Below are positions 2,359 through 25,732 of a stretch of DNA of 42,127 bases, piece by piece. Numbering within the stretch: position 1 is the first letter of the stretch; the number at the start of each line of letters is the position of its first letter. Position numbers and translations under genes: made by a program. This stretch comes from Candidatus Korarchaeum sp. (GTDB taxonomy: Archaea > Korarchaeota > Korarchaeia > Korarchaeales > Korarchaeaceae), in contig JAWAID010000002.1 in NCBI GenBank assembly GCA_038888615.1, positions 169,467-211,593 of the forward strand, written 5' to 3'. The notes beneath the pieces were generated by a model. It saw only the letters and a list, made by a program, of their open reading frames with translations. It was not told where the DNA came from and made no database searches.

Positions 2359-3105
2359 ATGACGGTGGAGAGGGTCAAAACCGGAATACCCGGCTTCGAT
2401 GAGCTCGTGGACGGAGGCATACCCAGGAGGAACATAGTGCTGCTATCAGGAGGCCCCGGGACGGGGAAGACGATATTCAGCCAGCAGTTCCTTCACTACG
2501 GGCTAACACTAGGCGAACCCGGGGTCTTAGTGACGTTAGAGGAACACCCGGTCCAGGTTAGGAGGGAGATGGCGGCCTTCGGATGGGACGTGAGGAAATA
2601 CGAGGAGGAGGGGAGCTTCGCCATAGTCGATGCTTTCACCGGTGGCATAGGGGAGGCTGCGAGGAGGGAGAGGTTCGTGGTTAGGAGCGTTGATGATGTA
2701 GGGGAGTTCATGGACGTTTTAAGGGAAGCTCTGAGGGATACTAAAGCCCAGAGGGCAGCTATAGACTCCGTATCAACTCTCTACCTCACCAGACCCGTCA
2801 CAGCTAGGAACGTCCTGATGCAACTCAAGAGGGTCCTCTCGGGACTGGGGGTAACGGCCCTGCTGGTCTCTCAGGTCAGCGTGACCGAGAGGGGTTTCGG
2901 AGGTCCCGGGGTCGAGCACGCCAGCGATGGGATAATAAGGCTGGATTTAGATGAGGTCAATGGGGAACTCGTGAGGAGCCTCATAATATGGAAGATGAGG
3001 GGTACGAGGCACGATATGAGGAGACACCCGTTCGAGATAACTGATGATGGTATAAGAGTTCACCCGGATAGGATTCTGAGGGAGAGGAGCTTGAGAGGTG
3101 ATTGA
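2359..3105 (+). CDS. KaiC-like RecA-superfamily ATPase (single domain)
   Basis: The 248-residue protein is a single KaiC domain. It starts with the typical [18 protein letters not shown] segment, followed by a Walker A motif GGPGTGKT at residues 31-38, a pair of glutamates in VTLEEHP (probable catalytic glutamates), and a Walker B-type strand [11 protein letters not shown] near residue 135. Archaeal stand-alone KaiC-like ATPases are thought to be regulatory or signalling ATPases; they are widespread and mostly uncharacterised. The stop codon lies directly before the start of the next gene, a predicted KaiC-associated regulator, so the two are almost certainly co-transcribed and probably form a complex. 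The start ATG at 2359 agrees with the TATA box and with the conserved N-terminus. Confidence 0.9.
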
Positions 3106-3106
3106 T

Positions 3107-3580
3107 GTGAGTGAGGAGATTCCACTCAAACCCGTTGGTAAGGAGGACGTTAGGAAGCTGGAGTTAGCCCTCCTGCTCGGTACGCTACTCAGGCCCGATG
3201 TGCTGGAGAAGGTCAGGAGCTCCGAGGACAGGTTGACTTGGCTGGACTCACTGGTAGTGGCAGCAGGCGCGTTAGCTAGGGAGAGAGCTGGTTACAGCGC
3301 TTCTAAGATAGCTGATGAGCTCGGTAGGACCGAAGCGACCATCAGGAACCACTTGACCGGTAAGACTGAAGCTGGGAAGCTAGTGAGGGAGACTTACGAT
3401 GGGATAAGGAGCAAGGGAGTTCTTGAGATACCTATGGTATCTCAGAGGGAGCTCGAGGAACTCAGGGAGAGGATCAGGAGGTACGAGGATTTGCTCAGGG
3501 AGCTGGAAGAGAGAATGAAGGAGTTGGAGGATCTGATGCTGAGGATGAAGGAACTATTTAGCAAATTCGGTCCCAGCTAA
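3107..3580 (+). CDS. KaiC-associated HTH / coiled-coil regulator
   Basis: The product has about 157 residues. Residues ~60-85 form a helix-turn-helix (SASKIADELGRTEATIRNHL) and residues ~105-150 form a leucine-rich coiled coil. This matches the architecture of the archaeal 'near KaiC' domain proteins (TIGR03879 type), which recur beside KaiC-like ATPases. GTG 3107 is preferred over GTG 3098 because a good ribosome binding site (GAGAGGTGAT, 3093-3102) lies just before 3107 but overlaps 3098. The preceding gene ends at 3105. The likely role is DNA-binding or adaptor output of the ATPase, which is an inference from context. Confidence 0.8.
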   Translation: MSEEIPLKPVGKEDVRKLELALLLGTLLRPDVLEKVRSSEDRLTWLDSLVVAAGALARERAGYSASKIADELGRTEATIRNHLTGKTEAGKLVRETYDGIRSKGVLEIPMVSQRELEELRERIRRYEDLLRELEERMKELEDLMLRMKELFSKFGPS

Positions 3581-3859: not shown

Positions 3860-5950
3860 ATGAAAAAAACGTCGTTGGTGGTACTCCTCTCGATCTCGCT
3901 CCTACTACCCCAGGCGCTAGACGTCAGAGCCGCACCTACCCCTCTCCCGATAATGGTAAACGAGTACGTAAATGCCACGATCTCAACCGAGGGCTTCGGT
4001 TACCTCTGCGGTCCTTGGAACGTGAGCGGCCGCATAGTAATACTGAACAACAACTCCGGTGAGACTGTATCCGATATATGGATCCCGATATACAGGCCCG
4101 AGGGCCTGACGATAACGGTCCTCTCAGCTCCTAATTACGCCGACGTCAGGAGCGGATCACCACCTAGCTACGTGGGAGCCGACAACCCTTCACCACAGCC
4201 CGGGTTCGAGCTCGAGTTCTGGCACGTGACCAGGCTCGTGAGCGGCGACAGCGTGACCTTAAGCTATACCTACCACGGAACGGGATGCGCCGGCATATTA
4301 GTTCAGGAGAGATACGATCCGGTTAAGATAGTCAATGGAGTGAGCTCAAACATCCGAGTGAAGCTGAACTTAACGAACACATTCGACTTCGACGTGGACG
4401 TCAAGGTGAAGAAGGTGCTGCCGGCTGACAACGGCGCAGAGGGGTGGCAGAACGCACAGAGCAACCCCGCCTTCTCTGGAACCCCGAGCGCCAACGTGGG
4501 TAGCGTGAGTTACTCCGCCAACTACAAGGAGCTTTACTGGACCGACGACGGCAGCTGGCCCGACGGTTGGTTCACCCTCGCGGCCGGGGCCAGCGGGAAC
4601 TCGACCTTCCAGATAACGGGGACCCCGGACCTGAGCGAGGTAGGCGGTTACACTCAGAAGATAACTTTAGGCACAGTCTACGTCTACATCAAAGCTGATC
4701 GCACCTTCACGGGCCTGACGGTAGGCAAGGTCTTCGCTATAAGCGATGCCACAGTTGAGGCCAAGAAGGAGCAGGACACCACGAACCCGAACGTCTGGAA
4801 GGAGACGCTGGTGTTTTACGATACGAGCGCTGTGTTCAGGTACGACCTCTTCAACACCACGTTATGGGCCACAGAAGGCAACACCCCGGACTCCGCCCTG
4901 ATAGCGGGTTCCCGAAACACGCAGCAGGTCTTCAACATAACCCAGCTCGATCCGGGCCAGAGCTACGATTACGGGCCCTTCAGCTTCACCTACAACGGGG
5001 TACCGAAGGTCTGGGGATTGGCTAAGTTCAGGATAACGAACGACGATACGAGGGGTTGGTGGAGCTACTACAACTTCACGGTGACGGGACCGGATCCCCA
5101 TAGGAGCAGGTACCAGGTGCACGAGGAGATATGGGCCGTCAGGGGATACCTGGTCAAGGCCAAGAAGGAGGTTGTCTCCGAGTCGACAGCCGGATGTTAC
5201 GCGATAGGAATCACGTTACAGAACATAGGTGAGTGGGCAGCCCCCTACGTGGAGTTCTACGACGTGGTACCCTTGGGCTTCAATCCCGATCCCAGCGCTA
5301 CGGAGGGCGGTATGATATTCAGACCCCTGAGCATGCTGGCCCTCGACGCTGACCCGAGCAGCCCGCCGGACTACAGCTTGATCACGAACCCCTCGGGCTA
5401 CTCAAAGGGCTACGTCTGGAAGGCTTATCCCATACCAGCACCTCAGAGCGGTTTCACGGTCTACTTCGAGCGACCAGGGGTCTGGAAGACAGTAGAACTA
5501 GTTTTCAGTGATGGTAGCAGGGAGCAACTAGAGGTCATGTACGACGCATCCGGCGGATGCGTTCAGATAGGACAGGGTGATTGTTACGTGGAGGGAGATA
5601 ACTTCCTAGCGTACAACGATTGGTTCTACGTTCACTACGTAGACCCCAACCTGACGACGGGAGGAGGTGGATGGGTGGTCATAACGGCATCGGGGAGCTA
5701 CGAGAACCTGAACATGGGTATCTACAACCCCGTCTTCGTCAAGTACAGGGTCTGCGGTACCGGAGTTTACAACGCCACAAACCTCTTCATAGTCGGTGTC
5801 GATCCGAGGAACACGCTCGATGCCATAGCTGTGAGGTTCCCGGGCGCTTCACTCAGCTTCGGAGCCTTCACGCTGGAGCCCCTGATGGCGGCGGTATCCT
5901 TAATACTGTTGGTGGCCACGGTCCTCGTGAGGAAGAGGAGGCATGCCTAG
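3860..5950 (+). CDS. Secreted, C-terminally membrane-anchored surface protein
   Basis: The 696-residue protein starts with a signal peptide (Lys-Lys followed by a leucine-rich stretch and probable cleavage near residue 25, after VRA). A long beta-rich extracellular region with several N-x-S/T sequons follows. The C-terminus is a transmembrane helix at about 670-690 (LMAAVSLILLVATVLV) with a short basic tail RKRRHA, so the bulk faces outside. Stretches such as the 'NNNSGETVSDIWIPIY' region resemble DUF11/COG1361-like surface beta-sandwiches, but the family is not identified. ATG 3860 is used; a second ATG at 3856 is in another frame. Its last 8 bases overlap the next gene, which makes translational coupling likely. 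Probably part of a cell-envelope or S-layer-associated assembly. Confidence 0.85.
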   Translation: MKKTSLVVLLSISLLLPQALDVRAAPTPLPIMVNEYVNATISTEGFGYLCGPWNVSGRIVILNNNSGETVSDIWIPIYRPEGLTITVLSAPNYADVRSGSPPSYVGADNPSPQPGFELEFWHVTRLVSGDSVTLSYTYHGTGCAGILVQERYDPVKIVNGVSSNIRVKLNLTNTFDFDVDVKVKKVLPADNGAEGWQNAQSNPAFSGTPSANVGSVSYSANYKELYWTDDGSWPDGWFTLAAGASGNSTFQITGTPDLSEVGGYTQKITLGTVYVYIKADRTFTGLTVGKVFAISDATVEAKKEQDTTNPNVWKETLVFYDTSAVFRYDLFNTTLWATEGNTPDSALIAGSRNTQQVFNITQLDPGQSYDYGPFSFTYNGVPKVWGLAKFRITNDDTRGWWSYYNFTVTGPDPHRSRYQVHEEIWAVRGYLVKAKKEVVSESTAGCYAIGITLQNIGEWAAPYVEFYDVVPLGFNPDPSATEGGMIFRPLSMLALDADPSSPPDYSLITNPSGYSKGYVWKAYPIPAPQSGFTVYFERPGVWKTVELVFSDGSREQLEVMYDASGGCVQIGQGDCYVEGDNFLAYNDWFYVHYVDPNLTTGGGGWVVITASGSYENLNMGIYNPVFVKYRVCGTGVYNATNLFIVGVDPRNTLDAIAVRFPGASLSFGAFTLEPLMAAVSLILLVATVLVRKRRHA

Positions 5951-6587
5951 GAGAGTACTTCCCCTCATCTTATTTTTAACACTTGCTTTTCACCCTTCAT
6001 CGGCTCAAGATGAGCCCCTGGTTTACAGCGATGTGTTGATGAGGATATTGCTGAGGGAGGATGGCTCAGCTACCATAAGCTACGAGTTCACCCTGCTTAA
6101 CAGAGCTAGCGTTCCTGTGGTCCCGGGTTACGGTTACTTCAACGTGAGCAGTGGTAGGATAATCGACGCTAAGGCCGAGGTGATGGGGAAAAGGGCAGAG
6201 GTCATCTTCGAGGATAAGTACGCCCGTTACTCGATATGGGAAGTGATAAAGCCCGGAGGTAGCATTAAAGTCGAACTGAACCTCACAGTATCGGATTTCC
6301 TGAGCAGGGGAGTGCTATTCGATGAGTTCAACGCCATATTGGGTCCCTTCCCCTATCCCATCGAAGGGGGAAAGGTTGAGGTGGTAGCCGGGAGCGGCTT
6401 GTACATAGTGTACCTCCAGAAGGATGACCTCGGCTCGCTGAATTCGGAGGGAAGCATTAGAGTGAGAGGGGAGGTATCGAGGATACCCCTACCGATGCTC
6501 CCCTTCAGCTGGTACCCCATCTTCTGGAGCATCGTGATTTTTGGCCTGGCCCTCACCCTAGCTCTGAGCATGAGGAGGAAGCGGTGA
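5943..6587 (+). CDS. Small secreted single-pass membrane protein of the surface operon
   Basis: The 214-residue protein has a signal peptide (residues 1-22, ending near SSAQ), a beta-rich external domain with N-glycosylation sequons (NVSS, NLTV), and a C-terminal transmembrane helix (about 188-208, FSWYPIFWSIVIFGLALTLAL) ending in a basic RRKR tail. The opening pattern (DVLMRILLREDGSATISYEFTLLN) resembles exported proteins that begin with a transglutaminase-like or DUF2207-type beta domain, but this is weak. It overlaps the preceding gene by 8 bases, has a strong purine-rich ribosome binding site (5931-5941), and its TGA abuts the TTG start of the giant gene. It is likely a partner of the two large surface proteins. 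Confidence 0.8.
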   Translation: MPRRVLPLILFLTLAFHPSSAQDEPLVYSDVLMRILLREDGSATISYEFTLLNRASVPVVPGYGYFNVSSGRIIDAKAEVMGKRAEVIFEDKYARYSIWEVIKPGGSIKVELNLTVSDFLSRGVLFDEFNAILGPFPYPIEGGKVEVVAGSGLYIVYLQKDDLGSLNSEGSIRVRGEVSRIPLPMLPFSWYPIFWSIVIFGLALTLALSMRRKR

Positions 6588-9500
6588 TTGAGACTCAGCT
6601 TAGCACTAATCCTCCTCTCGCTCACCTTAGTGGAGGTAGCTGCGCAAGGGTCAGTGGGCATAGAGCTGGAAAGGAGCTCCCTCTCTCCGGGCGAGCCCCT
6701 GAGGATCGAGATATACAAAGCATGCGAGGTCACGCTCTCAGGCCCTAACCTAACTGAGGTGCTCTTCTCAGGCTACAGCGATCACTTGAACCTCGAGTTG
6801 GATACATCAAACCTCCCCCTGGGCTATTACGAGATCCTGAACAACTGCAGCGGTGAGGTAACGAGGGCTAACTTCACTTTAGATGAGCTCTCGATAGAGG
6901 CTAGCTCCCCATCTCCTAACATAATAGAAATCGAGGTTTACTCTAGGTTCCTCAAAGCCCCCGTTGAAGCTTCAATCACCGTGAATGGCTCGGCTTACCG
7001 AGGCCCCTTCGAGCCCCCTCCGGGGCTCCTCAGGGTGGAGGCCAACTACTCAGGGTTGAGTGTCTCCGAGGTAATAGAGGTCCCTGAGATAGTAGCTAGG
7101 GATTACTACACACCTGATAACGTGACTTTGATCATAAGATCTCAGGGGAAGCCCAAGCTCAAGTTGATATCCCCTCTAAACGCGGTCGAGGAGATCGAGG
7201 TCAGGAGGCTGAACTCGACCCACTGGATAGCTTCCCTTGAGCCGAGGGGACCAGTGGCTCTAGGTAGCTACGAGGCCATAGTCTCCCTCGGGAACCTGAG
7301 CTTTTCGAGGAGCTTCAGAGTGACTTACTTCTACGCTGACTACTCGTACGATGGTAGGTCCCTTGAGCTTCACTTGAGGGACGCCACCACGGGTGAACTG
7401 GCCAGAGGTATCCTGGGGCTGAGATCCTGTTTCTGGAACAGGAGCTTTGAGTTCAACGGTACTCTGATCACAGAGGCTGGAGGGCCGCTGGAGCTTTCGT
7501 TCGAGGATGAGAGAGGGCTTAAGTTCGAGACGACGATATCGGGGATCTCATCCGAGAAGCACCTCTACTTCCCAGGAGATGATGTGGAGCTGTGCGTGGC
7601 TGGGGGGAGCTTCAAGCTCAGGTCCCCGAGCGGCAGGGTCCTGTTGGAGGGCGACGTCGGGGAGATGAGGTCCATCACCTACCCGCTGGTGGAGAGCGTG
7701 GAGCTCGGATCTTACTCCCTAGAGCTTGGAAATGCGTCTTGGAGCTTCTACGTGGATAGCTACTCGATAGACGCCAGCTTCAATGGTAGCTACGTGGAGG
7801 GGAGGATCAGCTACTTCCTGGTCCCACCGAGCAGCCTGACATACGTGCTCCTACCCTCCAACCTCAGCGGTGAGACCGAGGTGGTGGGAGGGAGCTTCAG
7901 GATACTTATGCCCGAGGATCAGACCTCGATCCTCCTGAGCTGCGGTAACGCTAGGGTAGAGCTCAGGAGGTGCCCCTCATCCCTTGAACTAGCTGGAGTT
8001 AAGTTAGAGGCGAACAATACGTGTTTGACTGCTGAAGAGAGGGATGAAGGAATAATGATAACTTTGAGATCCTCTAAGGGTTTCTCAACGGTCCTAAGAG
8101 CTGAGATCCCCGATGGGAAGGAACCGCTGATACTGGCTGAGGACGGTAGGGTCATCAGGGTGAGGGAGGAGCGGCTAGGGAATCACAGCGGGTTCCTACT
8201 GCAGGACGGGTCCCCATCGGACCCGGATGGGGAGGCTAACGGATTGATAAGGATCCTCCTCGCCCTAAGGGAGAGGTCTCCCGAGCGGAGGGTGAAGGAA
8301 GCAGGGCATAAGGTTAAGGAGGCCAAGCTCATCAAGGAGTTGAAAGCCGAGGGGTCTGAGGGGAAGTGGAAGGTCAGGATTTACGAGGTCAACGGATCCT
8401 CAGCAGGTCTACAGGGCTTTAAGCATGCAAGGAGACCGAATACCCTCATAGAGGAGGAGAATATCGGAGGTTCGACCGATATCAAGGTCAATTACGAGCT
8501 AGTGAGGGATGGGAAGATCCTAGTGAGCTTGGATGGGAAGGAGGGGTGGGTGAGGGTAGCCGTGAAGCTACCGAGGGGAGCCGTCGTGGACGAGGTGTTG
8601 GCGGATAACGGTAGTAGGAAGGTGGACCTCTGGTACCAGGAGGGGGATGAGCTGGTCTTCTACGACGACCCAAACCTCTACTACTACGTGCTCTACCACG
8701 TACCTCCCTGGTGGGATCCCGATGGTGTGAATAGGGGTTACGATTGGCACTACAGGGTCCCGGTTCAGGTGCCGCCTACGCCAGCTAACCACGTGATCTA
8801 CCTCGATGTGGACTTCGGCTACCTCCTCAGCTTGCTCAACGTGAGCGGTACGTTCGATCCAAACTCAGTGAGGGTTGTCGATGATCAGGGTAGTTTGGTG
8901 CCGAGGCAGGAGTTCGTAGCCACGGGCCCCTCTAGAGGTAGAGTGAGGTTCGTCCTGCATAAGGACATCGCTACGCAGACCAACTTCTACGTGTACTTCG
9001 ACATTTCCGAGAACGGGGCTAAGCCCTACTTGAACACGCTGAACGCGGGGCTCGACTCCGGGACCCTGAGCTACTGGACTTACGGGAGGAACCCATCTAC
9101 GATAGGCTCGATAATAGGGGCGAGCCCTCCCGGTCCTTACACGGTCTACGATCCCTACGGTAATCCGAACTACGTATCCGATGACGGGGCCCCGATATTC
9201 GGGCCCTACTCATTGGTACTGGGCTACAGGACCCCCAGCGGGAGCGAGGATTCAACTACGACCGGCGAGGACACCTGGGCCTACTACGAGTTCACCGTGC
9301 CGAGCGATGGGGGCGAGCTCGAGTTCTGGTACAGGGTTGAGTCCTGGGACTCAGCTAACTACGATTACTTCACCGTCACCCTCCGAGATACGGCAGGGAA
9401 CGTGCTAGCTACCGTGGTCCCCAATTACAACCCCAACCCAGGCAATAGCTACGGCACGTTCGCTGATTCGGGATGGCTCTACGCATCGTACGACTTAGCG

Positions 9501-12500
9501 AGCTACGCAGGTCAAACCTTAAGGGCTCACTTCCTGGTCCACACCTATTCGGACGATCTTTACAAGACCTGGGCCTACGTCGATAACCTAACCTGGAGCA
9601 AGTTGGACCTGACTAGCTACCTGAACGCTCGGATGGTCGAGGGCTTCGGCGTCAACGTGACCTCGCCCAAGGGCAAGCTCGACTACGGCCCGGTCAGGGT
9701 CGAGGCCAGGGTCGATGCCAGGGCCAGCGTGCTGGCTAGGATATACGACCCCCTTGGGAACTTAGTAGCTACGGCGCAGCTTTACGATGACGGGACCAAC
9801 GGTGATGCAGTAGCCAACGATGGGGTCTACACTAACGCCAATGCCTACTCCCTCACGCCCAGCTCACCCCTCGGTAGGTGGAGGGTCTTGGTGCTAGCCA
9901 ACGACTCCTCGACGTCGACCTACTCGCCCTCGTACAATGGGCTCATACACATCCCAGGCAGGCCCTACGAGGTCAATTACACCGACTTCTTCAACGTGGG
10001 TGAGTCAACTTTCTTCTTCGGACCCCTGAGCGGGGTATTATTTGAGGACAGGAGCCCCCTGGCTTCCAAGGGTAACGAGGATAAACCCTTCGCCAATGTA
10101 CACGTTTACGCTTTCAAGGACGACGGTGATGGTGCCTTCGATCCGCTCAACGATGCCCTGGTCACCTGGGGTATGAGTGGAGCGGATGGGGGCTATAAGC
10201 TATCCTTACTACCCGGGAGCTACTTCTTAATGATCAACTCCAGGGAGCTGAGTCCTGAGCTCAACGCAGGACACTCGGTTGAGGAGACCTGGGCCGATCA
10301 GACTTACGGGGTTGAGTGGAACGGTAGCGCTTACGTCGGTACCGAGAAGTTCGGTGGGCTAGATCCTAGCGTGAGCGATGCCTGTACGCTGGAGGTAGTG
10401 CTTCACGATGACTTCGAGACCTGGACAGGATGGTACAGATACGGGAGCGGTGACGTAAGGCGATCTAACGTCGAGTTCTACAACGGCAGCTATAGCCTCG
10501 AGAAGTATACTTGGAACGATCCTAACGGAGGGTATAAGCCGCTGGGGAGAACCATAGGAAGGGGTTACGTGCTCCAGGGCTACGCCTTCAGACCAATCCC
10601 AATTGGAGTGAGGTCCAGGGTAGCCGTAGCTCTGGTCGACGGTAGCTACAACGGATACGGTTTCATAGTGGATCACAGGAACAACAGGGTTAGCATCGTC
10701 AGGAGGACAGGTGGAACTGCCACGACCCTATCTCAAGTGAACTACAATCCTCCTGAAGCGACTTGGTACTTCTGGAAGTTGATCCTCCTGACCAACAACA
10801 CCATAGTGTTCAGGCTCTACGACACCGATGGCACCTTGCTGACCCAGGTGAGGGCGACTGATGCCACTTACAACAGCTTCGATAGGGTGCTCGTACAGGG
10901 GGACGCGACTTACTACCTTGATGTCCTCGTCCTGTGGAGGCTCCCCCAACGCTGCGAGCACTTAGCTAAGGTCAGCACTGCTAACTACCTGGGCGAGAGC
11001 ATCGACTTCGGTTTCAGTTACGAGGTCATAGTGAACACGAAGGACGTTGATGATGCTCCCACTGAGCTTAGGTTCGCTCAAGGCTCCCTCAGGCAGTTCA
11101 TACTCAATTCCAATGCCATATACAGGATGCAGAAGAGCCACTTCAGGATACCCAAGACGGATAGCGGTTACGTCCAGGAGAACATGCCTTCAGGAGACAA
11201 GATAGACGTATGGAGGATCGTGTTGAGCTCAGAGCTACCTGTGGTCACTGACCCAGTGAACTTAACCGCTAGGACCCAACCTGGGAGCAGCTCCCTGATC
11301 GAGGGTAGCTACGTGGGTTGCGATAACTACAGGATACCCGACTTCGAGACCCCCAGGGTTGAGCTATACGGGAACGGCTACACGGTGTTCAACTTAAGCG
11401 CTAAGTACGCTCAGCTAGAGGGATTCAGCGTGTACATGACTCCCTACGCGGTGTCCGCTATGGGAAGTGATAACCGCTACCTGATAAGGGATAACTTCAT
11501 AGGGGCTTACGCTAACGGTACGGATGCACCTAAGGTCTTCTTCGGGGTCTCGATAGGGAAGTACGGTGCCCCGGTGATCTACAGGAATCTATCAGCCGTT
11601 GTGAAGCACAACATAATAGCTGGGGCCCTCCATTACGGCGTAGTCGTCAACAGCGGTAACATAGCCAACGCAAAGGTAGAGGAGAACTGGGTTAGGGGAT
11701 GCGGGATCGAGTACAGCGTGGGTGACGGCATAAGCTTGCAGACGAACGGAAATCTGGTGCTGCACAACTTGATAGAGGGAAACAGCAACAACGGCGATAC
11801 CTCGGTGATGGACGGTGGGGCGGGCATCGAGCTCATAGTATGGACTGTTGAGCAGAGCGAGGGCCTGAATAAGGTGATCAATAACAGCATCCTGAACAAC
11901 GGGAGGTGGGGCGTGAGCGTCCTCTCAACTTACACCAAGGCCGACATCAGTGGGAACTCGATAAGCGGGAACGGTATAGGGATCATCGTCTCCCATACTT
12001 CGGTGGCCAACATAACTGGGAACTGCATATTCAACAACTCTAGAGTTGGGATAGACCTAGATACCTCAGGGAACCCTAACGGGGACGATGTGACCCCGAA
12101 CGACGGCCAAATGAATCCATCGCATCCCAATAATGGGATCGATTATCCCGTAATAACTTCTGCTCTATTACTGGACGATCAGCTCTACTTAGAGGGATTC
12201 ATAGGGAGGGAGGACGTAGGAGGATCCCCAAACTTCGGAGGGGCTTTAGTTGAGATCTACCTGGTTAGGAACTCAACCAAGGGGGATGACTTGTTGGGGA
12301 ACAACCTATCTCAAGGGGGTCAGCTGCCTAAGAGCTACGGTGAGGGCTGGATCTACCTGGGCAGATTGTTAGCTAACGCCAACGGTTACTTCAGCGGTAG
12401 CCTGGACGTATCTGGCAAGGGAGTCGATCCGGGCTCGCTGATCACCGCTACCGCTACTCTCAACGGTACCTCCGAGTTCGGCCCGAACGCTCCAGCTATG

Positions 12501-14258
12501 CGCAGGAGGAACCTGTCGGCCTCGATAAGAGTAGATGGAATGGAGGCCACCGTAAGCGTCACGGCCCATGAGTTCAGGCATCACAACGTGATCGTCTACT
12601 GGGTGAAGCCCGAGAACATGAGCGTAGTGTCGATGAGCGGCGACTACAACCAATGGGGGACGGTGGGCGATGTCTACTGGTGGAGGTTCAATAAGATAGA
12701 AGCCGGCGAGACGAAGCACGTTTACCTGACGTTCTCCTCCTCAGGCGAGTACAGACTGCTGGACGCCCTCATGCTGGGACTGGACCCACCGACGGGCTCC
12801 CTGAGCCTAGAGGTGAGGGAGTTCTCAACGATAACGTTCTACCCCAACGGTACCCATAGGGTCAGCAGGCTTTGGGGTTTCTTAACGCTCAATAACACGT
12901 CACCCGACCCCATATCGAGCTTAGAGCTCTACCTAGACGCCCCAGGGTACGTGTTCTACTTGGACTATCCCGCTCCGTCCAGCGAACCCGATGCCCTGCC
13001 CCTCAACTACTCCTACCTGGCTCCCTTCAGCTACGTCAGGTGGAGATACGAAGCGCCCGCCTCTGAGGCCATGGTACCGTTGGAGATCAGGGAGAGGAAC
13101 CTGAGCTGCGGCGTCGAGGTCATCGTGTTAGCTAAGGAAGACGTAAATGGTGTCAGGATCAGGAAGCTGGGTGAGGTTTGGGAGATAGGGGACATGAGGA
13201 GAGGGGGGAGTAGGAGCAGGACATTCTCAGTAAGCGGATGCGTATCTGAAGTGGCTAGCGTCGAGTTCAGGTACGCTAACGCCTCGCTCCTAACCAAGTT
13301 GAGGAGACTGAGGGGGGTGTCTAACGCTGAGGTGGATGTGATTAAGGAGCTAGCGGGGAGCACGGCTAGGGCAAGAGCCAACTTCAGGAACAGGGCTTCT
13401 AGCCTCATTTACAACCTGACTGAGATCTGCATCATGAGGTCCCCAACCGGGCCCGTCCTCTACTGCGAGTCCCCCGGCGTAATCCTGAGACCCGGGGAAG
13501 CCTACGAGACAGCTTACTTCAGCGAGACGGTGGGGAGCATCCCCGTCTACTACGCCAACGCTAGCTTCACGATTGTCCCCAGTATGGCGGGCTCGACGGT
13601 ACCACTCAGATCACTGGCCTCGGGGCTGCACGTAGCTGTAGCATCGCTCCCCGAGACCGTTTGCTGCATCACCTCTCCTCCGACGGTAACTACATCGCCA
13701 ACAGCGGTAACTACCACGATCGTGGGGGCAACGAGACCCACGACCACTGCTGCGGTACCAACAGCACCTGCAGCTACGCGTACCGAGACCACGCTGACCA
13801 CTCCAGCACCGACCGAGACAGCACCCGTGACGACCACACCATGGGTACCGATAAACATAACGGTGCCCCCCGAGGTGAGGAGGCTTCCACTAACCTTCCT
13901 GATGTCGCTCGGCTTACCCCTGATGATAGTCCTCCTCATGATGAGGAGGAGGACAAGCTTAGTGGTTTCGGATTACAGGACGCTGAGGATACTGCGAGAG
14001 GAGGGGAGACTACAGGACCTAGCGAGAATCTTCAGAGTGGCCATTACGGACCTAACTCTACTGATGGCATTAGGTGATGAGGACCTATTGAGAGCTATAG
14101 TAAGCCTAGGTCCCGATATTCACATCACGGAGAGCAAGGATATAGAGCTCATCACGAGTTTAGCCCCTCCCGGTATTGATTTAGATACACTCCTCGCTAG
14201 GGAGCTAGCGAGGAGGTTGAGGGTGAGCTTCCTGCCTGACCTGTTGTTAGGGAGGTGA
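6588..14258 (+). CDS. Giant multidomain surface protein with beta-helix, Thr-rich stalk and cytoplasmic tail
   Basis: The 2556-residue protein begins at TTG 6588, directly after the previous stop, with ribosome binding site GAGGAGG at about 6571-6577. Order of parts (approximate residues): signal peptide 1-20; repeated beta-sandwich modules 20-700; a DUF2341-like module 706-810; a jelly-roll/lectin-like module 885-1005; a module with DDGTNGDAVANDGVYT near 1070; an SdrD/Cna-B-like module 1145-1235; a laminin-G-like module 1266-1450; a right-handed parallel beta-helix 1560-1850 with a cap module to about 1975; further beta domains to 2340; a Thr/Pro-rich linker 2358-2418, probably O-glycosylated; a transmembrane helix 2433-2454; and a cytoplasmic domain 2455-2556. 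N-glycosylation sequons are abundant. Domain names rest on sequence feel and are tentative. The likely role is an envelope, sheath or adhesion component. Confidence 0.85.
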   Translation: MRLSLALILLSLTLVEVAAQGSVGIELERSSLSPGEPLRIEIYKACEVTLSGPNLTEVLFSGYSDHLNLELDTSNLPLGYYEILNNCSGEVTRANFTLDELSIEASSPSPNIIEIEVYSRFLKAPVEASITVNGSAYRGPFEPPPGLLRVEANYSGLSVSEVIEVPEIVARDYYTPDNVTLIIRSQGKPKLKLISPLNAVEEIEVRRLNSTHWIASLEPRGPVALGSYEAIVSLGNLSFSRSFRVTYFYADYSYDGRSLELHLRDATTGELARGILGLRSCFWNRSFEFNGTLITEAGGPLELSFEDERGLKFETTISGISSEKHLYFPGDDVELCVAGGSFKLRSPSGRVLLEGDVGEMRSITYPLVESVELGSYSLELGNASWSFYVDSYSIDASFNGSYVEGRISYFLVPPSSLTYVLLPSNLSGETEVVGGSFRILMPEDQTSILLSCGNARVELRRCPSSLELAGVKLEANNTCLTAEERDEGIMITLRSSKGFSTVLRAEIPDGKEPLILAEDGRVIRVREERLGNHSGFLLQDGSPSDPDGEANGLIRILLALRERSPERRVKEAGHKVKEAKLIKELKAEGSEGKWKVRIYEVNGSSAGLQGFKHARRPNTLIEEENIGGSTDIKVNYELVRDGKILVSLDGKEGWVRVAVKLPRGAVVDEVLADNGSRKVDLWYQEGDELVFYDDPNLYYYVLYHVPPWWDPDGVNRGYDWHYRVPVQVPPTPANHVIYLDVDFGYLLSLLNVSGTFDPNSVRVVDDQGSLVPRQEFVATGPSRGRVRFVLHKDIATQTNFYVYFDISENGAKPYLNTLNAGLDSGTLSYWTYGRNPSTIGSIIGASPPGPYTVYDPYGNPNYVSDDGAPIFGPYSLVLGYRTPSGSEDSTTTGEDTWAYYEFTVPSDGGELEFWYRVESWDSANYDYFTVTLRDTAGNVLATVVPNYNPNPGNSYGTFADSGWLYASYDLASYAGQTLRAHFLVHTYSDDLYKTWAYVDNLTWSKLDLTSYLNARMVEGFGVNVTSPKGKLDYGPVRVEARVDARASVLARIYDPLGNLVATAQLYDDGTNGDAVANDGVYTNANAYSLTPSSPLGRWRVLVLANDSSTSTYSPSYNGLIHIPGRPYEVNYTDFFNVGESTFFFGPLSGVLFEDRSPLASKGNEDKPFANVHVYAFKDDGDGAFDPLNDALVTWGMSGADGGYKLSLLPGSYFLMINSRELSPELNAGHSVEETWADQTYGVEWNGSAYVGTEKFGGLDPSVSDACTLEVVLHDDFETWTGWYRYGSGDVRRSNVEFYNGSYSLEKYTWNDPNGGYKPLGRTIGRGYVLQGYAFRPIPIGVRSRVAVALVDGSYNGYGFIVDHRNNRVSIVRRTGGTATTLSQVNYNPPEATWYFWKLILLTNNTIVFRLYDTDGTLLTQVRATDATYNSFDRVLVQGDATYYLDVLVLWRLPQRCEHLAKVSTANYLGESIDFGFSYEVIVNTKDVDDAPTELRFAQGSLRQFILNSNAIYRMQKSHFRIPKTDSGYVQENMPSGDKIDVWRIVLSSELPVVTDPVNLTARTQPGSSSLIEGSYVGCDNYRIPDFETPRVELYGNGYTVFNLSAKYAQLEGFSVYMTPYAVSAMGSDNRYLIRDNFIGAYANGTDAPKVFFGVSIGKYGAPVIYRNLSAVVKHNIIAGALHYGVVVNSGNIANAKVEENWVRGCGIEYSVGDGISLQTNGNLVLHNLIEGNSNNGDTSVMDGGAGIELIVWTVEQSEGLNKVINNSILNNGRWGVSVLSTYTKADISGNSISGNGIGIIVSHTSVANITGNCIFNNSRVGIDLDTSGNPNGDDVTPNDGQMNPSHPNNGIDYPVITSALLLDDQLYLEGFIGREDVGGSPNFGGALVEIYLVRNSTKGDDLLGNNLSQGGQLPKSYGEGWIYLGRLLANANGYFSGSLDVSGKGVDPGSLITATATLNGTSEFGPNAPAMRRRNLSASIRVDGMEATVSVTAHEFRHHNVIVYWVKPENMSVVSMSGDYNQWGTVGDVYWWRFNKIEAGETKHVYLTFSSSGEYRLLDALMLGLDPPTGSLSLEVREFSTITFYPNGTHRVSRLWGFLTLNNTSPDPISSLELYLDAPGYVFYLDYPAPSSEPDALPLNYSYLAPFSYVRWRYEAPASEAMVPLEIRERNLSCGVEVIVLAKEDVNGVRIRKLGEVWEIGDMRRGGSRSRTFSVSGCVSEVASVEFRYANASLLTKLRRLRGVSNAEVDVIKELAGSTARARANFRNRASSLIYNLTEICIMRSPTGPVLYCESPGVILRPGEAYETAYFSETVGSIPVYYANASFTIVPSMAGSTVPLRSLASGLHVAVASLPETVCCITSPPTVTTSPTAVTTTIVGATRPTTTAAVPTAPAATRTETTLTTPAPTETAPVTTTPWVPINITVPPEVRRLPLTFLMSLGLPLMIVLLMMRRRTSLVVSDYRTLRILREEGRLQDLARIFRVAITDLTLLMALGDEDLLRAIVSLGPDIHITESKDIELITSLAPPGIDLDTLLARELARRLRVSFLPDLLLGR

Positions 14259-14262
14259 TGTA

Positions 14263-15033
14263 TTGTCCTACCTCGAGATCCTCAAGGAGGCCTGCGATTC
14301 CCTGGGTGAGGGGTACTTCGAGCTCTTGAGTAGCTTACTCGCCCCTCACTTAGGAGAGGACCCATTCACTAGGCTATTCGATGACCCCAGTGGTTTCATC
14401 CGCTCCCTGAGGGTAGCCCTCGGGGGTGAGGCCGACCGCTTCCTGGTCGCTCTAGCAGCTACGCTCAAGCAGAGAGGTGTTGATGTGAACGCGAGGTCCC
14501 TAGAGAGGACGCTGGAGAGAGGGGATAGGGAGAAGGTGAGGGCTCTATTCGAGAACGCTTCAACTTCGACTCCCCTAGAGAGCGGATACAGGGAGCTTAT
14601 GCTCAAGCAGTTGGAAGGGCTCTCAGCGAGCAGGAAGAGGAGAGTAGCCATAAGCTCTCTGCTCCTTGGAGTGGTGACCTTCTCCCTCGTATACCTGATA
14701 GCATCGATCCTCGGAGATTACTTGACTCAGGAGACCCTGAATAGCATCCTAATAATTGGGTTGATCGCGTCAGCTGCCCTCTCCATCGAGAACTACCTAA
14801 TCAACATCCCAGGGGTCCCGAGGGCGCGACTAACCGTCAGGGTCAGGGTCCTGGACGCCTCAGCTCTGAAGAGAAGCAGGATACCCGAGTTAGCTGAAGC
14901 GATATTGAAATCAAATGGGTCAGTCGATATAGTTGAGCTCTCAAGAGCAACTTCCGTTCCCCTAACGGATCTGATCAGCGAGATGATCCTCCTCCAGAGG
15001 GATGGTGCGATAAAGCTGGAGCCCCGTCGTTGA
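14263..15033 (+). CDS. Two-helix membrane protein with C-terminal winged-helix-like domain
   Basis: The 256-residue product starts at TTG 14263 behind a very strong ribosome binding site (GGAGGTGAT, 14251-14259) that overlaps the stop of the giant gene. Residues 1-125 are a helical cytoplasmic domain of unknown type. Two transmembrane helices follow (about 128-148 and 157-175) with a short external loop. The C-terminal ~75 residues (from about 182) include PELAEAILKSNG...VELSRATSVPLTDLISEMILL, which has the rhythm of a winged helix. There is no signal peptide, so both ends should be cytoplasmic. Its place at the end of the surface operon suggests it anchors, assembles or senses the surface proteins from the inside. 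No family is recognised. Confidence 0.75.
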   Translation: MSYLEILKEACDSLGEGYFELLSSLLAPHLGEDPFTRLFDDPSGFIRSLRVALGGEADRFLVALAATLKQRGVDVNARSLERTLERGDREKVRALFENASTSTPLESGYRELMLKQLEGLSASRKRRVAISSLLLGVVTFSLVYLIASILGDYLTQETLNSILIIGLIASAALSIENYLINIPGVPRARLTVRVRVLDASALKRSRIPELAEAILKSNGSVDIVELSRATSVPLTDLISEMILLQRDGAIKLEPRR

Positions 15034-19013: not shown

Positions 19014-20762
19014 TTATCGACAGCTTACCCCTCTTCTCTTAATCTCCTCCCTCAGCTTCTTAGTGGCTTCCATATCAATTTCCAGCGTCTTCGGGTCTAC
19101 AACAACACCGTACACGTTCCTCGCAGTTTCAACCGTTATGTAATCGTTCTTAACATCCCACTGCACGAGCTTGGGATCCCTATCCAGCGGGGATCCCCAT
19201 CCCCCGCCCCCAGCGCTCCTCAAGCTCACCATCTCCCCCTTGACTAACCTTAAGGCAGCGACCTTTCTGACCCTCTTGGGCTCCTCATTGTGCTTGTACA
19301 CTATACAGTAGTTCGGCGTACCTTGGCACCCTCCATCAACTCCCCAGGGTGGGAACTTCGACCTCCCTATTGAGACGGTGAAGGAGGCTTCGCTGCATAG
19401 CACCATGTAGTTCCTTATTATCCCGAATCCTCCCCTGAACTTACCGTGCCCTGTACCGTCCTCAGTATTAAGGCAATATCTCTCGACTAGGATCGGCATT
19501 CTCCTCTCGTAAACCTCAGCTGAAGCGATGTAAGTCTCCCCATCTCCACAGGCAACTAAAGCGCTCTCTCCATCGGAGTTGTAGGAAGCACCCCAACCTC
19601 CGGCCTGTGGCTCGACTATAGCGAAGGGCTCACCCGTCCTGTCATCCACCCCGCCCAGTATCGTTGCTAATATCGAGAGGAAGTGACCTGCACTCAGCTT
19701 CTCGGGTACGTGAGGTGCTAGAGCCTTCCATACTAGATCCGTAGTGTAGGACATCGCCTCCCAGAATGTAGATGTCGGAGCAGGCCTTCTCGGGTTGAAG
19801 ACGGTACCCTCAGGGGCTATCACCTTGAGGGGCTTGAAGTAACCTCCATTGGGCATCGCGTGGGGATCGGTCACGGCCATGTAGGTCTCCCTCACTCCTG
19901 ACACGGTGGCCGGGTACGATGAGTTTATCGAACCCTTGGCTTGCTCAGCGCTCCCGGTGAAGTCCACTACCATCTCATCGTCCGTTATCTTAACCTTGAC
20001 CCTAACGTAGAGGGGGTTATCGGTTATCCCGTCATCGTCTATGTAATCCTCGGCTTCGAACTCTCCCTTAGGAAGTTCCCTTAACTTGATCTTAGCATAC
20101 CTCTCACCGTCAGACAGTATCTTCTCCATGGCCAGTTGAACAGCATCCAGCCCGTACTTCTCTATCAGTGAGATCACCCTCCTAGCAGCGACTTTAAGCG
20201 ATGCTGCTTGAGCCTCCATATCCCCTATCGTGAACTCAGGTAGCCTCGAGTTGTACCTTATGATATCTATGACATCCCTGTTGGGCTTCCCCTCGACGAA
20301 GAGCTTGACGCAGGGGAACTGAGTTCCCTCTTGAAATATCTCCGTGGAGTCGGAGGTCCAGCTACCGAAGTGCATCCCTCCTACCTCGCTCCAGTGCCCC
20401 TTATTTATAGCGAATCCCAATAGCTTATCCCTGTAGAATATTGGCATGGAGAGAGTGACGTCATTCAAATGAGTTCCGGAGTGATAGGGGACGTTGCTTA
20501 TGAATATATCGCCGTCCTTTATGTCGCTTCCGAACTTCTCGAGTACCTCCCTAGCGACGAAGTCGAGGACTCCTGAGAAACCGGGTACTCCTGGAGCTAG
20601 GGCTATCAGCTCTCCCTTACTGTCAGCTAGAGCTACTGCGTAGTCTAAGACCTCGTATATCACTGGGCTCTTAGCGGTCCTCCCGAAGGCATAGAACATC
20701 TCATCGTTCGCTACAATAAGACCGTTCTTTATTATCTCGAGAGTGAAAGGATCCACTCCCAT
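19014..20762 (-). CDS. hyuB: Hydantoinase B / oxoprolinase-type subunit
   Basis: The 582-residue protein matches HyuB over its whole length. It begins with MGVDPFTLEIIKNGLIVANDEM, contains SGTHLNDVTLSMPIF and GHWSEVGGMHFGSW, and ends with the family's Gly-rich segment SAGGGGWGSPLDRDP near residue 525. HyuB is the partner of HyuA in ATP-dependent opening of hydantoins, 5-oxoproline or related cyclic amides, and the same pair occurs in acetone/acetophenone carboxylases. ATG 20762 follows a GGTGAT ribosome binding site, and the gene starts 11 bases after the stop of hyuA, so the two are co-translated. The exact substrate is unknown. Confidence 0.92.
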   Translation of the reverse strand: MGVDPFTLEIIKNGLIVANDEMFYAFGRTAKSPVIYEVLDYAVALADSKGELIALAPGVPGFSGVLDFVAREVLEKFGSDIKDGDIFISNVPYHSGTHLNDVTLSMPIFYRDKLLGFAINKGHWSEVGGMHFGSWTSDSTEIFQEGTQFPCVKLFVEGKPNRDVIDIIRYNSRLPEFTIGDMEAQAASLKVAARRVISLIEKYGLDAVQLAMEKILSDGERYAKIKLRELPKGEFEAEDYIDDDGITDNPLYVRVKVKITDDEMVVDFTGSAEQAKGSINSSYPATVSGVRETYMAVTDPHAMPNGGYFKPLKVIAPEGTVFNPRRPAPTSTFWEAMSYTTDLVWKALAPHVPEKLSAGHFLSILATILGGVDDRTGEPFAIVEPQAGGWGASYNSDGESALVACGDGETYIASAEVYERRMPILVERYCLNTEDGTGHGKFRGGFGIIRNYMVLCSEASFTVSIGRSKFPPWGVDGGCQGTPNYCIVYKHNEEPKRVRKVAALRLVKGEMVSLRSAGGGGWGSPLDRDPKLVQWDVKNDYITVETARNVYGVVVDPKTLEIDMEATKKLREEIKRRGVSCR

Positions 20763-20773
20763 AAGATCACCCC

Positions 20774-22834
20774 CTATTTAACGAAGATAACCAAATTCCC
20801 ATACTTATCGACGTGAGCCTCCTGTCCCTCCAGTATTATCGCTGTGGAGGTCGTCCCCTCCACTATGGAGGGTCCTCTTATCGTCTTATCCCTGGGGAGC
20901 AAGTCCCTATCGTATATCTTGAGCTTGGAGAAGCTACCGTTCAGAAAAACATCCCTCTCCTCCTTGACAGCTTTATCCAAGGAGTTGTTCCTCTCCGGAA
21001 CCTCAGTGAGCTTTATCTTCTTCACCGGTATGACCCCAGTTACGTGGAAGTTGACTATCTCGACGGGGCTCGAATCGAGCCTGAAGCTGTACTCCCTATC
21101 GTGACTGGAATGGAACCTCTCCTTGAGCTCCTCCACCTCGGCACTACCTATCCTCCCTCCCATCACTGGCACCCTAACGGTGTGCTCCTGGCCGTAGTAC
21201 CTCATGTCAGCGTACCTCTCTATCAGCACCTCGGTTGGGCTGAACCCCTCGGAGGCGAAGACCTCCCTGACCTTCCTCTCCAGCTCCTCATATATCGAGT
21301 TGACCCTGGATGTGGCATCGGGGAGATCCAGCCTGACTATGTAGGTGTACCTCACATCGTGCTTTATGTCTGTTAACAGCATCCCCCAAGCTGAGAACAC
21401 CCCAGGTGGTATCGCAGGCACTACTATCTTCTTGATCTCGAGTTCCTCAGCTATGAAGGGAGCGAACATCGGCCCGGAGCCTCCGTAAGCGATTAAGGTG
21501 AAGTCCCTAGGGTCGTATCCCCTCTGAACGGATACCAGCCTTATCGCATGAGCAGCGTTATCATTCGCTAACTTTATGATCCCCTCCGAAGCCTGCTCAA
21601 CGCTTACATTGAAGTGCTTCGCAATCTTCTCCTTGATCACCTTCTCACCTAGGTCCCTGTAGATGGGCAGCTCCCCTCCGAGCAGGTACCTGGGGTTCAG
21701 GAATCCGTTAACGACGTAAGCATCCGTCACAGTGGGTACGTTGCCTCCCCTCCCGTAACACGCGGGACCTGGATCAGCGCCTACGGCCTTCGGTCCGACC
21801 CTGAGATTACCCACGTCGTCTATCCAAGCTTCACTCGTCCCTCCGTTACCGACCTCAACGGTCTCCAACACCGGTACCATGACGGGATAGCCCGATCTGA
21901 ACCTGTCCCTCTCAACGTGGTACTCAGCGCTTATCCTCGGGTTCATGTTCTCCACTAAGCTAGCCTTAGTGGTGGTGCTACCACCGTCTAGAGCTATTAT
22001 GTTCCTCTCCCCTAAAGCCTCACCTACGGCCATGGCACCTATGACCCCAGCTACGGGCCCTGACTCTATCGTGTAGATGGGGTACCTCTCGGCGTAATCG
22101 AATGTAGCCATCCCGCCGCTCGATAGCATGGCGAAGTAAGTCCCCGAGAATCCCATCGCTGAGATACTGCTTCTAAGCTTCCCTAAGTACTTCTGCATCT
22201 TAGGCATGACGTAACTGTTCAATACAGCCGTGCTGGTCCTCTCGTACTCCCTCCACTCCCTAGTTATCTCGTGCGATAAGGTTATGGGCACACCGTTAGC
22301 GATCTCGCCAACTATCTTGCCAGCTCTTATCTCGTGCTCCGGATTAGTGTAGCTGTTTATGAAGCTGATGCAGATGGATTCAACGCCCTCCTCCAGGAGC
22401 CTCCTCGTGACCTGTCTCACCTGATCCTCATTCAGCTCCTTGAGTATCGAGCCATCGGCCATTACTCTCTCATCCACCTCTAGCCTCAGGTATCTGGGAA
22501 CGAACGGTTCGGGCTTCTTGTACCTGAAGTTGTACATATCCCTCCTGTTCGATCTCTGTATCTCTAAGTTATCCCTGTATCCCTTAGTTGTTATCAAGCC
22601 GACCTTAGCCCCGCTCCTCGTTATTATCGTGTTTATAACGAGGGTCTGACCGTGAACTATTACGCTAGCGTCCTTCATTGAGATACCGCTTTTCTTGATT
22701 GAGTTGAGCACACCTACGGAGGGATCCGCAGGGGTGGTCTCCACCTTCACCCAAGTCATTTCTCCCGTCTCATCACTATAGGAAACGAGGTCCGTGAACG
22801 CTCCTCCGATGTCTATTCCTATTCTAAGAGGGAT
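20774..22834 (-). CDS. hyuA: Hydantoinase A / oxoprolinase-type ATPase subunit (no standard start codon)
   Basis: The product is the actin-fold ATPase subunit of the HyuAB pair. The internal ATG at 22759 would give 661 residues but would remove the essential phosphate-binding strand. In the same frame upstream of it the DNA encodes RIGIDIGGAFTDLVSY, exactly where HyuA should begin, with no stop codon. No ATG, GTG or TTG lies in that frame near it. A GGTGAT ribosome binding site (22838-22843) precedes an ATC codon (22832-22834), used here as a provisional start; a CTG at 22847-22849 is the other option, or one base may be missing. Other motifs: ALDGGSTTTKASLV, GSGPMFAPFIAEELEI. It has its own TATA box and pairs with hyuB just downstream. 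Confidence 0.85.
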   Translation of the reverse strand: MPLRIGIDIGGAFTDLVSYSDETGEMTWVKVETTPADPSVGVLNSIKKSGISMKDASVIVHGQTLVINTIITRSGAKVGLITTKGYRDNLEIQRSNRRDMYNFRYKKPEPFVPRYLRLEVDERVMADGSILKELNEDQVRQVTRRLLEEGVESICISFINSYTNPEHEIRAGKIVGEIANGVPITLSHEITREWREYERTSTAVLNSYVMPKMQKYLGKLRSSISAMGFSGTYFAMLSSGGMATFDYAERYPIYTIESGPVAGVIGAMAVGEALGERNIIALDGGSTTTKASLVENMNPRISAEYHVERDRFRSGYPVMVPVLETVEVGNGGTSEAWIDDVGNLRVGPKAVGADPGPACYGRGGNVPTVTDAYVVNGFLNPRYLLGGELPIYRDLGEKVIKEKIAKHFNVSVEQASEGIIKLANDNAAHAIRLVSVQRGYDPRDFTLIAYGGSGPMFAPFIAEELEIKKIVVPAIPPGVFSAWGMLLTDIKHDVRYTYIVRLDLPDATSRVNSIYEELERKVREVFASEGFSPTEVLIERYADMRYYGQEHTVRVPVMGGRIGSAEVEELKERFHSSHDREYSFRLDSSPVEIVNFHVTGVIPVKKIKLTEVPERNNSLDKAVKEERDVFLNGSFSKLKIYDRDLLPRDKTIRGPSIVEGTTSTAIILEGQEAHVDKYGNLVIFVK

Positions 22835-22861
22835 AGCATCACCCCCCAGGGGCGGTTTAGG

Positions 22862-22876
22862 TAAATATAAAAAGTT
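22862..22876 (-). promoter_or_regulatory. TATA box of hyuAB
   Basis: Read on the minus strand this is a CTTTTTATATTTAC element. It would start transcription near 22844, right at the GGTGAT site, leaving almost no room for a start codon further upstream. It separates hyuAB from the racemase gene. Confidence 0.6.
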
Positions 22877-22924
22877 TTACTCAGGAAGTGTCACTTCAGC
22901 AGGGATAGTTGGAATATCTCCAAG

Positions 22925-23668
22925 CTACCCGAATAATCCCCATCCCTCGATCTCAGAACGAGGTGGCATCTCGTAAAGCCCTACTCTACTGTAAGACCAG
23001 CCGCACCTTCTCTTCAAGTCGACCTTCAGTTCAGCTACCTTCAACGAGGCTACGACCGGATCCACCACGGGTACTCCGATCTCTGACTGTAGCTCCCTGT
23101 AAAACCCAAGGAACACAGTGCAACCCAATATTATGACCTCGGCTCCCTTTTCGATAGCCCTTTTCGCTGCCTGAATAGTTCTAGCCTTCGTCTCGCTCTC
23201 ATCCTTATGGAGGTCATGCACCCCTAACCCTATCGGCTCGAGGGAGACGAGCCTGCCTCTCAACCCATACCTCACCACGTTCTCCTCCATTAGGGGGATC
23301 CACTTCCTCCTCCCCACCACTATGGAGAACTTACCACCCAGGAGGCTAGCTATAAAGAGGGAGGATTCAGCTGGGCCTGCGACGACGATGTTGCTTACCT
23401 CCCTCGCCTCTATGAGGGCTGGGTCGTAGAAGCAGCCTATTATGAAAGCATCGTAACCACTTCTCTCAGCTTTAACGACCTCCCTCAGGATATAAGGGGA
23501 GACTAGGGAGTCGTAGGAATAATACTCCAGGTGGTGAGGGCCGTTGGGAAGCGAAATAACATCAACCTCAGTTTCAATATCCTTATGCTCGTTTAGGTAG
23601 CTCATCATCATGTCATCGAAGACAGGTGTACCTATCGGATTCAAAAATAAGATCTTCCTTCCCGGCAT
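22925..23668 (-). CDS. Asp/Glu/hydantoin racemase family protein
   Basis: The 247-residue protein belongs to the Asp/Glu/hydantoin racemase superfamily. The two catalytic cysteines are visible in FIIGCFYDPAL and in VIILGCTVFLG, the N-terminal strand is KILFLNPIGTPVFDD, and the VVDPVVASLKVAELK segment closes the domain. Within this context it most likely interconverts enantiomers of the compound opened by HyuAB, as HyuE does for 5-substituted hydantoins. ATG 23668 is chosen over GTG 23677 because GGTGAT (23674-23679) sits five bases before it and overlaps the GTG. It lies upstream of hyuA on the same strand, separated by about 90 bases that contain the hyuA promoter. Confidence 0.85.
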   Translation of the reverse strand: MPGRKILFLNPIGTPVFDDMMMSYLNEHKDIETEVDVISLPNGPHHLEYYSYDSLVSPYILREVVKAERSGYDAFIIGCFYDPALIEAREVSNIVVAGPAESSLFIASLLGGKFSIVVGRRKWIPLMEENVVRYGLRGRLVSLEPIGLGVHDLHKDESETKARTIQAAKRAIEKGAEVIILGCTVFLGFYRELQSEIGVPVVDPVVASLKVAELKVDLKRRCGWSYSRVGLYEMPPRSEIEGWGLFG

Positions 23669-23677
23669 GCGGATCAC

Positions 23678-23813
23678 CTTGCTTGAGGATAGTGTCCAAG
23701 TTAATTAAAGTTTTTGCGCATATATGTTCGAAGTTAGGCGCTCAGTGTTTAAATAAAAACTTATAAGATACGCTCAGCGGTCCAAGGGACCCTGTGACGG
23801 GAGGTAGGATGTC
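23678..23813. promoter_or_regulatory. Divergent promoter region, racemase / ABC importer
   Basis: The gap holds a TATA-like element for the minus-strand racemase (about 23700-23712, ACTTTAATTAACT when read leftward) and ACTTATAAGA (23759-23768) for the plus-strand importer genes. A shared control region for catabolic and transport genes is likely. Confidence 0.5.
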
Positions 23814-24836: not shown

Positions 24837-24840
24837 GGGA

Positions 24841-25728
24841 ATGGCTAAGCTATCGCTCATCGTTATAGATAAGGAGTCCCCCAGGTGGAGGTCATTCAGG
24901 AGATCCTGGTATAAGTTCAGGAGAAACCCGCTCTCAATAGTGGGGCTTGCTATAGTCCTGATAACGATAATAGTAGCGCTGCTCCCGGAGTACCTAGCCC
25001 CATACCCTGAGCACGCTGGCTACTACATAAACTTCAAGGAAGCAAAGCAGCCACCGAGCCTTAAGCACGTATTCGGGACTGATGAGTACGGTAGGGATAT
25101 CTTAAGCAGGGTCATGTTCGGCTTCAGGTTCTCGATGATGTTAGCTGTAGTGGTGCTCACCCTGACAGCTCCTACTGGTATATTGCTCGGTCTAATAGCT
25201 GGTTATCATGAGAAGACCTGGGTAGACAATCTGATAATGAGGGTAGCTGATATGTTCATAGCGGTTCCCCCGTTAGTGTTAGCCCTGAGCATATGCTCAA
25301 TACTCCCTCCAAACATAATCAACGCGATGATGGCTGTCTCGCTCATGTGGTGGCCCTGGTACACTAGGCTAGTTTACAATACCACCGTCTCACTGAAGAA
25401 CGAGTACTTCGTCCAAGCTGCGGAGATAATGGGAGCGAGTAAGCTACACATAATGTTCAGGGAGATACTGCCGAACGCCTTAGGACCAATACTGACGAAG
25501 CTAACCTTGGACGTGGGTTGGGTGATACTCATAGGCGCATCCCTCAGCTTCGTTGGGCTTGGAGCTCAACCGCCAACACCGGATCTCGGGACAATGGTCT
25601 CCGATGGGAGCAAGTACCTCCCCCAGTTCTGGTGGATAAGCATATTCCCAGCTCTAGCGATCTCCTTCATAATACTGGGCTTCAACCTGCTGGGTGATGG
25701 TATAAAGGACGCCTTATCAGGAGGGTGA
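24841..25728 (+). CDS. ABC transporter permease, DppC/OppC type
   Basis: The 295-residue permease has the DppC N-terminus (WYKFRRNPLSIVGLAIVLI), the periplasm-facing segment FGTDEYGRDILSRVMFGFRFS typical of OppC/DppC, an EAA loop (YFVQAAEIMGASKLHIMFREILPNA), and the C-terminal GAQPPTPDLGTMVSDG motif. It pairs with the DppB-type permease to form the channel. ATG 24841 is four bases after the preceding stop and has ribosome binding site GGGTGAG; a longer form from TTG 24820 would overlap that gene and is less likely. Confidence 0.92.
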   Translation: MAKLSLIVIDKESPRWRSFRRSWYKFRRNPLSIVGLAIVLITIIVALLPEYLAPYPEHAGYYINFKEAKQPPSLKHVFGTDEYGRDILSRVMFGFRFSMMLAVVVLTLTAPTGILLGLIAGYHEKTWVDNLIMRVADMFIAVPPLVLALSICSILPPNIINAMMAVSLMWWPWYTRLVYNTTVSLKNEYFVQAAEIMGASKLHIMFREILPNALGPILTKLTLDVGWVILIGASLSFVGLGAQPPTPDLGTMVSDGSKYLPQFWWISIFPALAISFIILGFNLLGDGIKDALSGG

Positions 25729-25732
25729 TCCC

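Follow-up and report, generated by a model that had tools for sequence, protein, structure and literature searches.

A conserved archaeal four-gene cluster that may encode a transmembrane cell-surface complex in Candidatus Korarchaeum

Winged-helix proteins of the ToxR or CadC type are membrane-bound one-component regulators. On the outside of archaeal cells, the closest described assemblies are S-layers and predicted surface or secretion systems. Korarchaeum cryptofilum is reported to have a dense S-layer with a spacing of ~14 nm, and a review of the organism names no gene for it (PMC5744192). The tetrabrachion of Staphylothermus is a stalked S-layer complex (PMC4460559). In the system predicted for arCOG01314, Ig-like surface proteins occur with small membrane proteins, and its defining genes encode a MoxR-type ATPase, a vWA protein and a DUF4350 protein (PMC5898192). 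Here we compare with these systems a four-gene cluster found in a 42,127-nucleotide stretch of a Candidatus Korarchaeum genome (1.67 Mb in two contigs), the whole of which is referred to as the window.

Gene set and ectodomains

The four genes, g1 to g4, are tightly packed on the forward strand. In the list of open reading frames, g1 and g2 overlap by 8 bases, the gap between g2 and g3 is 0, and g3 and g4 are separated by 4 bases. The coordinates, sizes and spacing given by the first-pass annotation agree with this list.

3860..5950, + strand: g1, 696 aa, secreted, C-terminally anchored and all-beta (open reading frame list, homologues, AlphaFold model)
5943..6587, + strand: g2, 214 aa, secreted, with one C-terminal membrane helix (open reading frame list, alignment of homologues)
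6588..14258, + strand: g3, 2556 aa, a giant surface protein and its membrane anchor in one chain, with a TTG start
14263..15033, + strand: g4, a 256-aa membrane protein with a helical N-terminal domain, a two-helix hairpin and a predicted cytosolic winged helix

By hydropathy, g1 and g3 have a signal-like N-terminus and a single C-terminal helix, g2 has a C-terminal helix, and g4 has the two helices that had been ascribed to it. It had also been proposed that all three exported proteins end in a membrane helix with a basic tail. This was found for g1 and g2, but the helix of g3 is followed by a folded PIN-like domain of ~104 residues that is predicted to be cytosolic. The only Pfam match above cut-off across the four proteins was the beta-helix of g3. 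For g1, g2 and g4, scans returned no Pfam match above cut-off and no NCBIfam family coverage, in keeping with the earlier failure to match the set to a known S-layer, pilus or secretion system. The g1 profile, the g2 profile and g3 were likewise without significant match among PDB chains, which included solved S-layer and other surface proteins.

Immediately upstream of g1, at 2359-3580 of the window, Pfam identified a KaiC-family ATPase and an HTH protein whose genes overlap by 8 bases. The pair also adjoins the cluster in G010, which is assigned to the genus of the window and which we take to be Candidatus Korarchaeum cryptofilum, and in G012, but not in more distant Korarchaeota loci. An arginine-deiminase-like protein is encoded at 842-2182 (Pfam ADI E 1e-8), and Hydantoinase A and B, an Asp/Glu racemase and an oligopeptide ABC transporter with its binding protein at 19014-29529.

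Of the four proteins, g1 is the best conserved; its AlphaFold model (pLDDT 78) shows an all-beta ectodomain. Foldseek matches of this model to AP2 mu and delta-COP domains covered ~270-300 columns at 12-15% identity; they were taken as general beta-sandwich likeness and set aside. When the C-terminal ectodomain of g3 was aligned with g1 by HHalign, the probability was 96% with an E of 4.7e-9 over 359 columns. On this profile comparison, g1 and the anchor part of g3 are homologues. In the giant part of g3, the assigned domains are generic for surface proteins, and the protein contains 46 N-glycosylation sequons versus a mean of 21 in shuffles. A Thr/Pro-rich stalk precedes its membrane helix and is found at the same position in several other anchors.

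5873..5929, + strand: C-terminal membrane helix of g1, ~aa 672-690, then a basic tail (hydropathy; helix in the model)
9321..9590, + strand: weak MAM-like stretch of g3, aa 912-1001 (Pfam InhA-like_MAM E 0.03, below cut-off)
9777..9893, + strand: choice-of-anchor X domain of g3, aa 1064-1102 (NCBIfam NF041940 E 5e-9, above cut-off)
11856..12080, + strand: right-handed beta-helix of g3, aa 1757-1831 (Pfam Beta_helix E 4e-8, above cut-off)
12798..13577, + strand: g1-like module forming the anchor ectodomain of g3, aa 2071 to ~2330 (HHalign to g1)
13659..13877, + strand: Thr/Pro-rich stalk of g3, ~aa 2358-2430 (read from the translation)
13884..13940, + strand: membrane helix of g3, ~aa 2433-2451 (hydropathy 2.24)

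Conservation across archaea and the S-layer question

The four reading frames are conserved at 36-71% identity in K. cryptofilum-like genomes and thus did not arise by chance. Related loci are also present in Methanodesulfokora washburnensis and in MAGs titled Crenarchaeota or Thermoproteota. A relative of g1 was detected in 13 of the 29 genomes of the phylum and in 12 of the 17 good ones; since none was found in the other five good genomes, the cluster is not universal in Korarchaeota. Where both are present in Korarchaeota, g2 always adjoins g1, and g1, g2 and g3 are contiguous in the loci covered. The exception is g3 in G002, where its position is occupied by an 858-residue protein that matches only the C-terminal part of g3. 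All loci that cover the end of g3 (11/11) have g4, with its winged helix, directly downstream. The length of g3 ranges from 858 to ~3250 aa over the Korarchaeota loci, and the flanks of the cluster vary among genomes.

The first-pass annotation made no mention of a wide archaeal spread. Within a sample of 394 archaeal genomes, the g1 profile matched 35, representing 19 of 252 genera. Outside Korarchaeota, the matched genomes presumably include those of M. jannaschii, M. vulcanius, Methanotorris igneus, Methanococcus aeolicus, Methanothermococcus okinawensis and Archaeoglobaceae. Of the 19 non-Korarchaeal loci, 18 have a match to the g2 profile close to g1, and most also have a giant g3 relative. 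The search for the same gene order in relatives, which had been suggested as a check, thus found the order conserved in Korarchaeota; in Methanococci, Archaeoglobaceae and further archaeal families, the g1-g2 pair has large surface proteins as neighbours. The giant of Methanococci has no membrane helix; instead, a separate gene of ~485-530 residues encodes a secreted module, a stalk, a helix and a PIN-like tail. Because giant and anchor are separate genes there, we interpret the Korarchaeal g3 as a giant-plus-anchor fusion, and the two arrangements provide a gene-fusion link between the parts. In the g1 tree, the Korarchaeota rows and the Methanococci rows each form one clade with 100/100 support.

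Two further loci were seen in this survey. At the M. jannaschii locus, a 987-residue protein between g1 and g2 (L103:8888-11848) matches the g3 profile in two of its stretches and has a g1-like end. A g1 relative on a contig filed under a Thermoanaerobaculia bacterium MAG (L070) probably reflects a binning error.

We considered whether the operon encodes the Korarchaeota S-layer or an outer sheath, in which g1 or g3 would build the lattice and the anchor would serve as its pillar. In favour of this, the products are exported, anchored and sequon-rich, the gene for the reported K. cryptofilum S-layer is not given in the review (PMC5744192), and the Candidatus Korarchaeum genome has no S_layer_N protein. 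Such a role is at odds with the absence of g1 from 5 of the 17 good Korarchaeota genomes and with the variable length of g3. Pfam S-layer families had no match in the four proteins. S_layer_N was found in the M. jannaschii control and, since that organism has this canonical protein in addition to the cluster, its cluster is not its S-layer. We regard an S-layer or sheath as an unlikely, though by no means remote, identity for the cluster in Korarchaeota.

Predicted cytosolic domains of g3 and g4

The cytosolic parts of the cluster are predicted to be contributed by the ends of g3 and g4. These folded domains, including the winged helix of g4, were absent from the first description of the locus.

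13944..14255, + strand: pseudo-PIN domain of g3, aa 2453-2556, predicted cytosolic (profile match, model of a relative, Foldseek)
14659..14802, + strand: two-helix membrane hairpin of g4, helices near aa 133-151 and 162-180 (hydropathy; kept in shorter orthologues)
14842..15030, + strand: C-terminal winged helix of g4 (g4 profile versus Lrp 2l4a, E 5.2e-7)

The profile of aligned g3-type tails had the Nob1 PIN nuclease 2lcq as its best PDB match (E 9.7e-6), and it also retrieved stand-alone PIN proteins and a Nob1. The homologous tail of a relative (L044), chosen for modelling because it is longer than that of the window, gave an AlphaFold pLDDT of 91.9 and a Foldseek list headed by PIN structures; the fold of the window tail is by homology with it. 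Direct Pfam scans of the tails gave no PIN match and HHalign against five PIN proteins of the same genome was weak, so the assignment rests on the profile, structure and fold searches. On these grounds, g3 ends in a folded PIN-fold domain that is predicted to lie inside the cell. All 21 Korarchaeal tails compared (21 of 21) retain the first catalytic Asp, but the second acid is lost in nearly all and the others in most, and the full set of four catalytic acidic residues was not found in these tails. Since most of the catalytic acids are lost, we refer to the domain as pseudo-PIN. It is not an obligatory part, as the counterpart anchors of two other families (at L099 and L101) lack it. A VapBC toxin-antitoxin pair, which consists of a soluble nuclease and a small antitoxin gene, was discarded as an identity for this domain, which is carried by a membrane-anchored giant and followed by the gene for a two-pass membrane protein.

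Similar tails are found on other proteins. The same genome encodes a second pseudo-PIN-tailed protein, a NosD-like, beta-helix-like surface protein of 1265 residues (L003:2815-6612), whose relatives occur in many Korarchaeota, some of them lacking g1. In another archaeal family, a 546-residue protein has a membrane helix and a PIN-like tail (L157:1492-3129).

The C-terminus of g4 is a winged helix by profile comparison, predicted to be cytosolic and putatively DNA-binding; one g4 orthologue has a MarR match above cut-off. More distant orthologues are without the N-terminal helical domain and consist of the two helices and the winged helix. At two Archaeoglobaceae-like loci, the partner ends in another kind of cytosolic tail, which we tentatively read by eye as PIN-like (HHalign to anchor tails, 62%). 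The N-terminal helical domain of g4 also stands alone in proteins of ~103-118 aa at four loci (L051, L052, L053 and L054); at L051 and L052 this protein is beside an ABC-transporter-like operon.

Proposed complex and comparison with known systems

We propose, with moderate confidence, that the products of the four genes make up a single transmembrane complex at the cell surface, adhesin- or envelope-fibre-like outside and with a pseudo-PIN/winged-helix module inside. The co-expression and membrane-anchored complex postulated for the locus by the first-pass annotation gain support from the tight packing and from gene order kept over large distances. In such a complex, the C-terminal part of g3 would sit close to the membrane outside together with g1 and g2, each on its own helix, and the g1-like module of g3 suggests that like modules pack side by side. 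The remainder of g3, which has Ig-like stretches, a choice-of-anchor domain and a beta-helix, would be held outward on the Thr/Pro stalk as an adhesin or envelope fibre, a role we infer from its domains. On the cytosolic side, the winged helix of g4, a two-pass protein, may join the pseudo-PIN domain of g3 in a module that keeps the complex together or reports on its state.

The last possibility could be taken further. Engagement of the surface fibre might be reported through the membrane to the pseudo-PIN domain and a winged-helix partner acting on nucleic acid, which would make the complex an outside-in sensing machine. We consider this improbable; if true, no transmembrane surface receptor of this kind is known from archaea.

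The four products could instead be separate surface proteins that share an operon and form no complex. The flanks of the cluster vary from genome to genome, and the modules are reused elsewhere, as in the PIN-tailed NosD-like protein of the same genome. Independent proteins would not readily account for a gene order kept across archaeal families, or for a giant and an anchor that form one protein in one lineage and two in another, and we judge this explanation to have little chance of being correct. A role in secretion or membrane remodelling, after the model of the system predicted for arCOG01314, in which Ig-like surface proteins likewise have small membrane proteins as partners (PMC5898192), is very unlikely and was rejected, as Pfam scans of the neighbours found no genes for a MoxR-type ATPase, a vWA protein or a DUF4350 protein around the window. 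A contact-dependent or polymorphic toxin with a toxic C-terminal PIN domain would fit the layout of a giant surface protein ending in a nuclease fold, but the chance of this is negligible and it was rejected, since the domain comes after the membrane helix and is predicted to face the cytosol, most of its catalytic acids are gone, and it is conserved rather than polymorphic.

The transmembrane surface complex that we favor is probably old, adhesin- or envelope-like and, in the open-licence papers searched, undescribed; no papers were found in that literature for MJ1393-MJ1396 or for a Kcr locus name. The cluster, whose core is shared by many heat-loving archaea, would represent a multi-gene surface system in M. 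jannaschii and several archaeal families whose core members have no Pfam or NCBIfam entry, and it is a candidate for surface genes of Korarchaeota. Cytosolic ends of the pseudo-PIN and winged-helix kinds are unexpected on a surface complex. Knockouts and tagging have been published for M. jannaschii (PMC6616113), so the cluster is testable there.

The cluster resembles several known systems in part. The tail of g3 has the fold and sequence profile of the PIN superfamily (Nob1, VapC), but it is placed on the predicted cytosolic end of a giant surface protein and has mostly lost the catalytic acids. The membrane-tethered winged helix of g4 recalls the ToxR or CadC type; g4 differs in that it forms a two-pass hairpin, its two ends are predicted to be inside, and it has no outside sensor domain of its own. 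Canonical archaeal S-layer proteins (S_layer_N, MJ0822 family) are likewise secreted, sequon-rich and membrane-associated, whereas the cluster has no S-layer family match and coexists with such a protein in M. jannaschii. With the arCOG01314 complex, it shares Ig-like surface proteins and small membrane partners in one neighbourhood. The long anchored stalk of tetrabrachion, which keeps the outer domains off the membrane, is likened to the cluster in the way that it would work; unlike tetrabrachion, the four-gene cluster has no protease gene.
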